DNA of 24,493 nucleotides from the IMG/VR virus record IMGVR_UViG_3300009103_000148, positions 1 to 24,493 of that record; one strand, 5' to 3'. Position 1 is the first letter of the stretch; each line of letters begins with the position of its first letter. The translations under genes and the position numbers were made by a program. The notes beneath the pieces are model-generated. The model was not told the DNA's origin and ran no database searches. It saw only the letters and a list, made by a program, of their open reading frames with translations. Positions 3,708 to 20,942 of this stretch are shown here, one piece after another. The stretch comes from a virus.

Positions 3708-5864
3708 TTATTTTTCAGGGGAATTTTTTTTATTTTTTTTCCCATGATACAGCAGGGAGGCAGCATAGGGCGCCAGTTCCATTTCTGCTGAAATCTCCAG
3801 TATCTCAGGTAATGTTTGTAAATCTGCAATTAACTTATTGTCTTTGATACAGCTAAGAGTGCGATCCTCCCATTTCTCCTGAGGGGTGGAAACGATAACA
3901 CTTTTGCACAATTCATCTATCAATTCCTTTCTAACCTTTGTCAGTCTTTTGATTTTGAACTGAGATCGAGTTTCTTTTTCAGCGAACTTGAATAAATCAT
4001 TCGTTAGTCCGACGGCTCCCTCTATTTCCTCAGGAGTTATCTGGGCGAAAGCAGGGGCAGGCTTCCCTTCTTTTGTGGTGCCTGCAGGACGCCCCTTGTC
4101 TTGTTTTAATTGTTTCTTCTTACCTCGTTTGGTGGGAAAACCTATTGTAACTGGCCCTGTGATGGGCTCAATACCTTCATCATCCACAACGTCTTGAACC
4201 TGAGGCGTTTTATCTTCTGGCTGATTGGTTTTAGTAGGCTCGCCCTTCATTCCTTCTTCTTCTTCTTCAGTTCCTATAAAAGGCGCTCCTCCCACTAGTG
4301 GCATATAATAACCTTTTTCCCTATCCTTCAAGAATTTGTCTTGGTCATGTTCAATATCATCTGAATGGGGATAGATTCCTGTTTTAATTGTCCGTATTCC
4401 TTCTTCAGGAGTAATGATTCCCAATTCCATAAGGCGAGTAGTTACTCTTTGGAGTTGTACTTCATCCTTAATATCCAGTTCTTCAAACCTCGGGGTAGGG
4501 TATTTTCTAAACCCAAGATTTTTACACACTAGTTTTATTTGAGGCTTTAAAAAATCATTCAAGAAAGCGTTGCGAGCTTCCTTTAGTCGTTCAAGAAAAA
4601 TCTGAGCCTTGACTTGTGTATTACTATAACGTTCGTGACCCACCACTACATTTTGCAAAGCCTCCTTGATGTCTTCATTGACTACTTCATACTTCTGTGG
4701 ACCGAGAACCTTATTAAGATCAGGAATCACAAAATCAGCCTTTGTAGTATAGTCGCTAACTAAAACACGCCCGATACTTTGATTACCAAACAATTGTTGC
4801 ATAGCGGTTAGATTATGTGGATTAATACCTCCTTTATCAGGAGTGTTACCCATTGTTATTAAAAGAATTACATTTTCTATGGTACGACAAATGGCCTGAT
4901 CAACCTTCTTTAGTTCTATTTTCCAATTAAGATCATCCAGGACAGGAAAACCAAAAGGGATAGCAAAAGGCTCGTAATCTTGTTTTTTATAAAAAGAGTA
5001 TACTAATTTTTTGGGTTCTAATTCCATTAGCACACCTGTAAGGCCGAATTCCCCTGACTTAATTCTTTTTCGAGTTTCTGGAGGAAACGACTGAAGTACT
5101 TCTTCGTCATAAGGGGTTTGGGGGTTTTTTAAACGAGCTAATTCAAATTCAGAAAGAACCTTCCTATAAATAAGCTCCATATGGATGCTGGTAGCCCTTA
5201 CAGCGATTATGTCATAAGGATTGAGAGTTATATATTTAATCGGGATTTGATTGGGCTTAAGGAATTGCCCTCCATAAATAGTATTAAACTTGGCGAAATC
5301 ATCTTCATTGAATTTACTATCCAACCTATATAAAAACACATTTCCAGACCTATAGTATTCCCTGAAATACTGATCTTTTAATGACCATATTTTTATATTT
5401 TGCATCCATTTATCAATGAAGTCCCTGGATTTTCGAGTGCCACCCTCTAACACTAAGTCTGTATTGGCGAACTCTGCCATAATGTCTATTACGTTCCGAA
5501 AAATGGCTATATTGGCATAAGCTTTCTGACATAGTAAAATAGCATCTCTTACATCAGCTTCACCACCTTTGGTGTAATTATAGGGTAATGCCCCTTCCCA
5601 TATATTATTATACTTATAAATCTTAGGGGCTATTGCCGCTCTATTTTGACGACTAGTAGTTCTGCCATCTGTAGCCGCGTTCCCACCTGACCCCGACCTA
5701 GAGTAAGCTTGCGTTTCGCTCTTATAAAAAGCCTCCCCAACGATCTTGGGTTCCCATGCCTCTGAGGTTAACTCTTGAGTGAGATCCTCTAGGGTTTTTT
5801 CGTGCTTCTTAAATTTATTCCAATAGTCAGACGTTTTAATGTATTTTCTTTTTTGTTCGGACAT
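3708..5864 (-). CDS. Portal protein
   Basis: A 718-residue protein encoded directly after TerL, as expected for the portal ring through which DNA enters the head. The N-terminal half holds a helical stretch with AYANIAIFRNVIDIMAEF followed by QYFREYYRSGNVFLYRL, similar to the region where portal proteins form the clip and stem. A long linker rich in Glu, Pro, Gly and Lys lies near residues 550-620. I place the start at the ATG at 5864 (MSEQKRKY). An in-frame codon 18 bp upstream would put the start inside the promoter, whose TATAAC (5871-5876) ends 6 bp before this ATG, with TGGACT 17 bp further upstream. Confidence 0.78.
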   Translation of the reverse strand: MSEQKRKYIKTSDYWNKFKKHEKTLEDLTQELTSEAWEPKIVGEAFYKSETQAYSRSGSGGNAATDGRTTSRQNRAAIAPKIYKYNNIWEGALPYNYTKGGEADVRDAILLCQKAYANIAIFRNVIDIMAEFANTDLVLEGGTRKSRDFIDKWMQNIKIWSLKDQYFREYYRSGNVFLYRLDSKFNEDDFAKFNTIYGGQFLKPNQIPIKYITLNPYDIIAVRATSIHMELIYRKVLSEFELARLKNPQTPYDEEVLQSFPPETRKRIKSGEFGLTGVLMELEPKKLVYSFYKKQDYEPFAIPFGFPVLDDLNWKIELKKVDQAICRTIENVILLITMGNTPDKGGINPHNLTAMQQLFGNQSIGRVLVSDYTTKADFVIPDLNKVLGPQKYEVVNEDIKEALQNVVVGHERYSNTQVKAQIFLERLKEARNAFLNDFLKPQIKLVCKNLGFRKYPTPRFEELDIKDEVQLQRVTTRLMELGIITPEEGIRTIKTGIYPHSDDIEHDQDKFLKDREKGYYMPLVGGAPFIGTEEEEEGMKGEPTKTNQPEDKTPQVQDVVDDEGIEPITGPVTIGFPTKRGKKKQLKQDKGRPAGTTKEGKPAPAFAQITPEEIEGAVGLTNDLFKFAEKETRSQFKIKRLTKVRKELIDELCKSVIVSTPQEKWEDRTLSCIKDNKLIADLQTLPEILEISAEMELAPYAASLLYHGKKNKKNSPEK

Positions 5865-20376: not shown

Positions 20377-20447
20377 CATAACCCTTTGATAACCAACAAC
20401 TTACAAACCTCCGAGCTCCGTAAGCCCTTGATGGTCAACGACTTACG
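20377..20447. repeat. Double-palindrome repeat, copy 17
   Basis: 27 bp upstream of the -35; arms CATAACCCTTTGATAACCAA and CGTAAGCCCTTGATGGTCAA. Confidence 0.78.
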
Positions 20448-20466: not shown

Positions 20467-20492
20467 AAAACGCGGGGCAAGCCCCGCGTTTT
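20467..20492 (-). terminator. Rho-independent terminator of the tRNA-like cluster
   Basis: AAAACGCGGGGC, loop AA, GCCCCGCGTTTT, 30 bp downstream of the tmRNA-like element. Symmetric, so it can work both ways. Confidence 0.85.
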
Positions 20493-20521: not shown

Positions 20522-20585
20522 TGGTGGAGGTGTTGGGAGTTGAACCCAAGTCTTGTGTCGCCACAATCGAATCCGATGCACCCCC
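20522..20585 (-). ncRNA. tmRNA tRNA-like domain without messenger domain (mini-tmRNA)
   Basis: A 64-nt element. Read 5' to 3' on the minus strand: acceptor GGGGGTG (20585-20579) pairs fully with CACCTCC (20532-20526), giving a G3-U70 wobble, then A73 and an encoded CCA (20525-20522). After the acceptor comes CATCGGATTCGA, the tmRNA D-loop signature GGATTCGA; then a 5-bp hairpin TTGTG-GCGA-CACAA (20566-20553) with a GNRA loop; then a canonical T arm TTGGG-TTCAACT-CCCAA (20549-20533). In tmRNA the hairpin position holds the 250-300 nt pseudoknot and messenger part. G3-U70 and A73 are the known identity elements for alanyl-tRNA synthetase, so the RNA should be charged with Ala. It lacks any anticodon. 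Likely co-transcribed with the two tRNA-like genes upstream. A decoy of trans-translation or an SmpB/AlaRS/EF-Tu ligand is inferred. Confidence 0.75.
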
Positions 20586-20611: not shown

Positions 20612-20737
20612 AGGGGTAGGTTGGACTCGAACCAACGACCTCTCGCTTGCCTCCACGGGTAATTACTCCGTTCGCTAATTTATCTAGAATTTCACGATGA
20701 AGGAGGGACGATGCTCTACCGACTGAGCTACTACCCC
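20612..20737 (-). tRNA. tRNA-like gene with ~50-nt expansion in the anticodon region
   Basis: Acceptor GGGGTAG (20737-20731) pairs fully with CTACCCC (20619-20613); discriminator U, no CCA. D arm GCTC-AGTCGGTA-GAGC is canonical and the T arm GTTGG-TTCGAGT-CCAAC is perfect. Between D and T arms lie about 75 nt where a normal tRNA has about 22. This stretch can fold as TCGT/GCGA extended by CCTCC/GGAGG with a long loop that itself contains TTCA-TCG-TGAA and ACGG/CCGT hairpins. I cannot place a U33-anticodon-purine37 loop on a 5-bp stem, so no amino acid is assigned; U73 would fit Gly or Cys. It is either an intron-containing tRNA or a tRNA mimic. Confidence 0.6.
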
Positions 20738-20831
20738 ACAAATTGCTGTGTACCTCTTTCTCTCTCCCCGAAGGGTTGTAGGCGTGTACTGACGCCTCGT
20801 TGTTCAATGATTCCTCATCTACAAAAAGAGC
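20738..20831 (-). other. Structured spacer between the two tRNA-like genes
   Basis: 94 nt of transcript between the tRNA-like RNAs. It contains AGGCGT-CAGTAC-ACGCCT (6-bp hairpin) and CCC-TTC-GGG, and starts with TGCTCTTT..GTAGATGA, which recurs right after the 20612-20737 gene (TGCTCTTT..GTAGATGA). The repeated trailer probably marks 3' processing. Confidence 0.45.
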
Positions 20832-20942
20832 AGTCCCTTGGGAGATTCGAACTCACCTTCTCCATCAATCGGTAGCGAACCGACTTGCTCAGAGGTTAAC
20901 ATAAGCGTGATAGTGTTTTAACCCATTCTAAACTAAAGGGAC
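20832..20942 (-). tRNA. tRNA-like gene with 35-nt expansion of the anticodon loop
   Basis: Acceptor GTCCCTT (20942-20936) pairs fully with AAGGGAC (20839-20833), discriminator U, no CCA. D arm GTTT-AGAATGGGTTA-AAAC, anticodon stem CTATC/GATGG (5 bp, one G-U), 5-nt variable loop AGAAG and T arm GTGAG-TTCGAAT-CTCCC (one mismatch) are all in place. The anticodon loop is 42 nt instead of 7 and contains a TCGGT/ACCGA hairpin. The loop begins A-C and ends A-T-T, so removing one internal block cannot restore the universal U33; that argues against an ordinary intron with this stem. First RNA of the cluster transcript. Confidence 0.6.

Follow-up and report, generated by a model that had tools for sequence, protein, structure and literature searches.

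Bacteria rescue stalled ribosomes mainly by trans-translation, a nearly universal pathway among them in which tmRNA is the rescuing molecule. The locus described here raises the question of what a phage might gain from encoding only the tRNA-like domain (TLD) of that molecule, cut down to 64 nt. The window, by which the whole analysed stretch of 24,493 nucleotides (IMG/VR record IMGVR_UViG_3300009103_000148) is meant, is a partial, 24.5-kb sequence from a tailed phage, with a terminase gene present; the phage is large and uncultured, and its terminase has 331 relatives in IMG/VR.

Structure of the 64-nt element

The element lies on the minus strand at positions 20522-20585, where it reads, from 20585 to 20522, GGGGGTG-CATC-GGATTCGA-TTGTG-GCGA-CACAA-GAC-TTGGG-TTCAACT-CCCAA-CACCTCC-A-CCA. 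Its 7-bp acceptor stem is formed by the 5' strand GGGGGTG (20579-20585, with G3 at 20583) and the partner strand at 20526-20532, the whole 3' end, CACCTCC with U70 (20528), A73 and the encoded CCA, spanning 20522-20532. The tmRNA D-loop signature GGATTCGA occupies 20567-20574 and is placed as such by the alignment to the Rfam tmRNA model RF00023, and the T arm (TTGGG-TTCAACT-CCCAA, 20533-20549) has a perfect 5-bp stem, in keeping with T-stem pairing across the family described below. Only a 14-nt hairpin and a 3-nt linker separate the D loop from the T arm; this hairpin, TTGTG-GCGA-CACAA (20553-20566), is a shortened 5-bp P2, matched by P2 covariation in the family, and replaces the pseudoknots and the tag reading frame. 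The predicted fold comprises acceptor, hairpin and T arm, with a folding energy (z of -1.66) that is weak evidence taken alone.

A cmscan search with RF00023 gave 59.1 bits (E 5e-21) against a gathering cut-off of 47, in an alignment that covers model positions 1-374 and skips 316 of them, namely the pseudoknots and the tag; a custom model, R1, gave 82.1 bits, having been built in part from the window TLD itself. ARAGORN, run on the window, did not call the TLD at 20585-20522. The 7-bp acceptor, tmRNA D-loop signature, T arm, A73 and CCA by which a TLD-only tmRNA is recognised are all present, whereas the messenger-like domain, resume codon, tag and pseudoknots of a full functional tmRNA are absent, together with 316 of the 374 model positions. 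The element is a tmRNA that has lost its messenger-like domain and retains an entire TLD, which a short P2 hairpin closes off. A previous sequence-only reading of this DNA had called it a stand-alone tmRNA TLD, a claim borne out by the RF00023 score and the skipped positions; the 7-bp acceptor, G3-U70, A73, CCA, D-loop signature, GCGA hairpin and T arm that it listed within 64 nt are all found in the sequence, and the Infernal search with tmRNA models that it proposed cleared the cut-off.

The same reading had named the edge of a longer tmRNA gene as the outcome that would overturn it. This origin is ruled out, since the 64 nt contain both halves of the acceptor and of the T arm, only 26 nt separate the element from the end of a tRNA-like gene upstream, and the permuted, two-piece tmRNA model (RF04321) reaches only 21.5 bits, as a truncated match below threshold. 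A tmRNA split by an intron was likewise rejected, no group I intron having been found in the window, and a chance match is ruled out by the E value of 5e-21 and by covariation in the family. Integration remnants of tmRNA genes carry one gene end. The window element has the full set of parts, from 5' acceptor, D loop and P2 to T arm and 3' acceptor, with a 14-nt hairpin connecting them; because both gene ends are in place, a left-over of an attachment site or of integration at a host tmRNA gene is rejected as extremely improbable, even though passages in PMC11915505 and PMC4383910 describe tmRNA genes as frequent integration targets.

Genomic surroundings

Three tRNA-like genes lie in a row on the minus strand; the TLD comes last, 26 nt after its neighbor at 20737-20612. 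That neighbor (20612-20737, minus strand) carries an insert of about 51 nt in its anticodon arm, scores 47.4 bits with RF00005 and is called by ARAGORN only when introns are allowed; the other gene (20832-20942, minus strand), whose anticodon arm is also disrupted, is called with introns allowed as tRNA-Gln(ctg), score 51. Downstream of the TLD by 30 nt lies a terminator-like 11-bp hairpin, AAAACGCGGGG-CTTG-CCCCGCGTTTT followed by CTTT (20467-20492, minus strand; -18.5 kcal/mol), which a simple terminator scan did not list because the T run apparently falls within the stem.

Several further features of these surroundings were observed. Structured anticodon-arm inserts of 15-71 nt occur in the window gene at 20612-20737 (minus strand) and in L332, as well as in L355, L356, L359 and L364; the insert of about 51 nt is identical in the window and L332 within tRNAs that differ around it, and several inserts carry a CTAGATAA-like loop. 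They resemble tRNA introns of no established class, or else noncoding RNAs with a tRNA-like form. Directly after T73 of tRNA-like genes there is, moreover, a conserved RNA of about 85 nt (window 20748-20832, minus strand; L330, L332 and L355-L373), present in 19 further phage contigs and nearly always right behind a tRNA-like gene. It forms a four-way junction in which the GAACAACGAGGCG and CTACAACCC stretches are invariant and the outer stem covaries (CTCTTT/AAAGAG, CTTTTT/AAAAAG, CTTACAC/GTGTAAG), as read by eye from an alignment; Rfam searches of the window and L330 copies returned no match at E<=1 on that strand. It may be a ribozyme that generates tRNA 3' ends in the manner of theta ribozymes (PMC10879173), or may belong to a larger tRNA-like RNA. 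A short, partly palindromic interspersed repeat around GTCAACGACTTACG is found at about 20418-20446 and in other intergenic stretches of the window, and recurs in intergenic regions of its relatives (L263, L256 and L242).

A family of stand-alone TLDs

Scans of viral contigs place the window element among at least about 49 distinct stand-alone TLD sequences of 62-109 nt, almost all from phage contigs, many of which are fragments (26 from a first scan and the window, 13 from a second, five longer ones, L082, three from Streptomyces phages and one from a MAG contig). The first scan combined the D-loop signature, a gap of 14-42 nt and then the T loop and acceptor end, with C70 allowed; it returned 39 contigs, which with the window give 26 distinct sequences, 25 having seven acceptor pairs and one having six. 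Over these 26, acceptor pairs are formed in 181 of 182 cases (best of 2000 shuffles, 156), P2 pairs in 126 of 130 (best, 86) and T-stem pairs in 130 of 130 (best, 103), counts for which conserved motifs fixed the positions and a few offsets could be chosen from, giving a slight bias toward pairing. The covariance across phages on which the sequence-only reading had staked its claim is accordingly strong, acceptor, P2 and T stems all lying above every shuffle.

Acceptor pair 3 is G-U in all 26 sequences, although the pattern permitted C70, whereas pairs 4-6 show four or more standard pair types; the invariance of G3-U70 beside this variation therefore speaks for selection on the determinant read by alanyl-tRNA synthetase (AlaRS). 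A second scan, in which the D loop was left free and G3 was imposed, added 13 short TLDs, with U70 in 13 of 13 and the GG...TCGA of the tmRNA D loop kept in 12 of 13, and a scan for longer inserts added five TLDs of 88-109 nt with a longer P2. Judged by conservation, both the G3-U70 alanine identity and the GG...TCGA region appear to be kept by selection. Two groups can be distinguished, that of the window, with a P2 hairpin of 5-10 bp, and another of 79-85 nt whose P2 has an internal loop. Elsewhere, the TLD of many phages occupies an intergenic position, either flush with a stop codon or a few nucleotides ahead of a start codon. When the first-scan pattern was applied to 84,980 prokaryote genomes, 91 stretches were returned; haloarchaea account for many of them, nearly all of the 91 were discarded at the acceptor test, and one, on an actinomycete MAG contig, has a full acceptor. 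As far as sequence comparison can show, the window TLD is one member of a diverse family of phage RNAs under selection.

Various candidates were set aside along the way. A first, loose pattern matched many stretches that were pieces of ordinary tRNAs or arose by chance, and requiring the acceptor eliminated these. Permuted tmRNAs account for the candidates in Stenotrophomonas, Tunturiibacter, Acinetobacter, Alcaligenes, Pseudomonas and Xanthomonas phages, and full tmRNAs for those in Gordonia phage GMA2 and Mycobacterium phage PegLeg; none of these is a stand-alone TLD. The idea of a mini-tRNA without a D arm, considered for short tRNA-Ala-like matches, was dropped when L442 was found to lie in a normal tRNA-Ala called by ARAGORN. 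L009, L041 and L139 are ambiguous as stand-alone TLDs, ARAGORN calling a 343-nt tmRNA that ends at the TLD and the 85-nt TLD alone scoring 69.9 bits.

Some loci met in these scans are of separate interest. The L420 TLD (5423-5488) lies within loop L5 of a group I intron (5277-5565, minus strand; 82 bits), where it may be a passenger or may serve to bring AlaRS or SmpB to the intron. Group I introns were found in two of 47 records, the other being the record of L380; of the two, the L420 intron is the one that was placed relative to a TLD, and it gives the single overlap found. A match to the RAGATH-24 RNA (L377, 5029-5100, plus strand) shares its contig with a TLD. In Tunturiibacter phage Tunturi_4 (L237; 1118-1465 and 1470-1879), a permuted tmRNA follows by 4 nt the gene for an RF-1-domain protein of 115 aa, possibly an ArfB-like rescue factor; if it is, two ribosome-rescue genes are adjacent in one phage. 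Gordonia phage GMA2 (L240) has a Pistol ribozyme match of 56.8 bits at 1843-1899, 3 nt past the tRNA-Trp of a tRNA array.

The family extends to cultured phages. Unannotated 81-nt TLDs, which score 57-64 bits as tmRNA, are found in Streptomyces phages BRock (KX925554), LuckySocke (OR725497) and pSt2308 (PV588686), in each case within a tRNA array and just downstream of tRNA-Val; a search of the three genomes with RF00023 found no full tmRNA of standard form. These TLDs are of the same RNA kind as that of the window and keep G3-U70, but their P2 is longer and has an internal loop, which surrounds a conserved GAAAGCCGCACGCGGA stretch.

Full tmRNA genes and SmpB in the lineage

A search of 44 TLD-bearing records, among them both fragments and near-complete genomes, turned up no SmpB gene, so host SmpB would be needed. 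A full tmRNA occurs in addition to the TLD in only two of the 43 records searched with RF00023, G036 (211 kb) and G002 (99 kb), both of which are kin of the window phage, as the genes common to them and the window indicate. Four other records that share the window terminase (G042, G043, G044 and G046) encode a full tmRNA but lack the stand-alone TLD. The full tmRNA genes of G042, G043, G046, G044 and G002 (L321-L325) measure 364-401 nt, with tags called by ARAGORN such as ANNIVRFEDFTACGEELALAA and GNKNRVRALGFKNRLAAKRFGFKGRKLALAA.

Among the sequences compared, the closest to the window TLD is the TLD part of the full G002 tmRNA (50 of 60 positions), followed by the stand-alone TLD of G002/G036 and the G046 tmRNA, with 49 positions each. 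The window TLD has the P2 base TTGT...ACAAGAC in common with the tmRNA of the lineage, and its T stem, TTGGG/CCCAA against GCGGG/CCCGC in the G002 tmRNA, differs by two compensated pairs. Together, the shared P2 base and the compensated pairs suggest that the messenger part was lost from a tmRNA of the lineage and that the remainder then evolved under structural constraint. That the element is a relic, left by chance from a phage tmRNA in decay, is accordingly weighed against the same data: its nearest sequence is a full tmRNA of the lineage, and several large relatives with only the full tmRNA have no stand-alone TLD, yet all of its stems are intact, the T-stem changes are compensated, the family holds at least about 49 distinct, well-paired members of similar shape, and host genomes are almost free of them (one fully paired case in 84,980). 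We regard a relic as quite improbable.

Relation to known tmRNA forms

The sequence-only reading knew of no described phage RNA of this form, which was wrong: mycobacteriophage DS6A has a "TLD only" tmRNA, listed in PMC4131195, discussed in PMC11915505 and entered in the tmRNA Website as tmID 11587. Both RNAs are phage-encoded TLDs without a tag, the window containing a terminase gene, and the DS6A RNA, whose host is mycobacterial, is likened to the window TLD by its description; the literature treats DS6A as a single phage case, in contrast to the family of at least about 49 sequences found here. According to passages in PMC4131195 and PMC11915505, a TLD-only molecule strongly inhibits tmRNA in E. 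coli whether it is charged or not (Mao et al., 2009). Genes classed as "Standard, no CDS" number only nine among 97,179 (PMC11915505).

Relative to canonical tmRNA (RF00023), the window TLD keeps the G3-U70 acceptor, A73, CCA, GGATTCGA D loop, GAC linker and T arm, but has lost the pseudoknots, resume codon and tag, and its P2 is cut to 5 bp. The same loss of the messenger part with retention of the TLD is seen in organellar tmRNAs without a CDS, both mitochondrial (RF02544) and the plastid forms of about 65 bp in Mallomonadaceae (PMC11915505); these are organellar, the mitochondrial ones usually permuted, and presumably arose separately from the phage TLDs. Mitochondrial tmRNAs are conserved despite having no tag frame (PMC11915505). 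One phage TLD-only RNA, that of DS6A, is therefore already known; what appears to be new is the breadth of the family, the conservation of the alanine determinant, the occurrence of TLD and full tmRNA in one lineage, the unannotated TLDs of cultured Streptomyces phages and the TLD inside a group I intron.

Proposed function

Having no resume codon, the TLD could act only as a competitor of tmRNA, as a dead-end substrate or as an adaptor that adds no tag. The reading preferred here, with little more belief than doubt, is that it is a competitive inhibitor or tuner of host trans-translation, a tmRNA competitor that binds SmpB and is still selected for alanylation. From established tmRNA biology, host RNase P and 3' exonucleases would trim the RNA, host AlaRS would recognise G3-U70 and charge it with alanine, and host SmpB and EF-Tu would bind it instead of tmRNA; supplying neither resume codon nor tag, it would inhibit or tune trans-translation, either because it titrates SmpB or because it goes into stalled ribosomes as a dead-end substrate, with the outcome that phage proteins may be spared tagging, or rescue may shift to other factors, during part of infection. 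The role proposed by the sequence-only reading, occupation of SmpB and a block of trans-translation, is plausible, the reported inhibition by a TLD-only molecule being an experimental precedent. A pure block is complicated by the full tmRNAs of the relatives and by the two forms in G036 and G002, since a block lasting the whole infection would hit the phage's own tmRNA, and pure SmpB titration leaves the invariant G3-U70 unexplained, because a TLD-like molecule inhibits charged or not (Mao et al., 2009, as reported in passages of PMC4131195). As these two observations sit badly with simple titration, belief in the competitor or tuner is held to that modest level, and a share is left to each of the alternatives, the relic included.

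One of these, possible though unlikely, is a rescue adaptor: the alanylated TLD would enter the stalled ribosome with SmpB and EF-Tu, the nascent chain would move to its alanine and other factors would release the complex, freeing the ribosome with no degradation tag, as suggested for tag-less organellar tmRNAs. Such a role would suit the invariant G3-U70 and A73, which imply that charging matters, and a TLD beside a full tmRNA in G036 and G002 is easier to accept if the TLD has a job of its own. The TLD has no resume codon, however, and without one we know of no route to normal termination. The conserved mitochondrial tmRNAs without a tag frame and the plastid forms of about 65 bp (PMC11915505) offer precedents, yet the only experiment on such a molecule cited in the relevant passages of PMC4131195 and PMC11915505 found inhibition. 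Somewhat less likely again is a tRNA-like element whose target is not SmpB, serving for example to capture AlaRS or EF-Tu or to aid mRNA processing or splicing. The L420 TLD in loop L5 of its intron and the many TLDs that abut stop and start codons would fit this role, whereas the GG...TCGA of tmRNA, kept even where the scan left the D loop free, would not be needed by a substrate of AlaRS or EF-Tu alone, and there is only one intron case in the 47 records examined. More speculatively, and in our view doubtful, many phages may independently use alanylated, message-less tmRNA heads as tag-free rescue adaptors or timed switches, one lineage doing so alongside its own full tmRNA, which would amount to a second, non-tagging, SmpB-dependent mode of rescue in infection.

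Implications

The data indicate a recurrent type of phage gene that ARAGORN mostly skips, with a conserved alanine determinant that SmpB titration alone does not explain. The cultured Streptomyces phages that bear such TLDs make the question of function testable. Should the TLD inhibit rescue, it would count as an RNA-based counter-measure to the quality control of the host; should it instead rescue ribosomes without tagging, SmpB would be used in a new mode.
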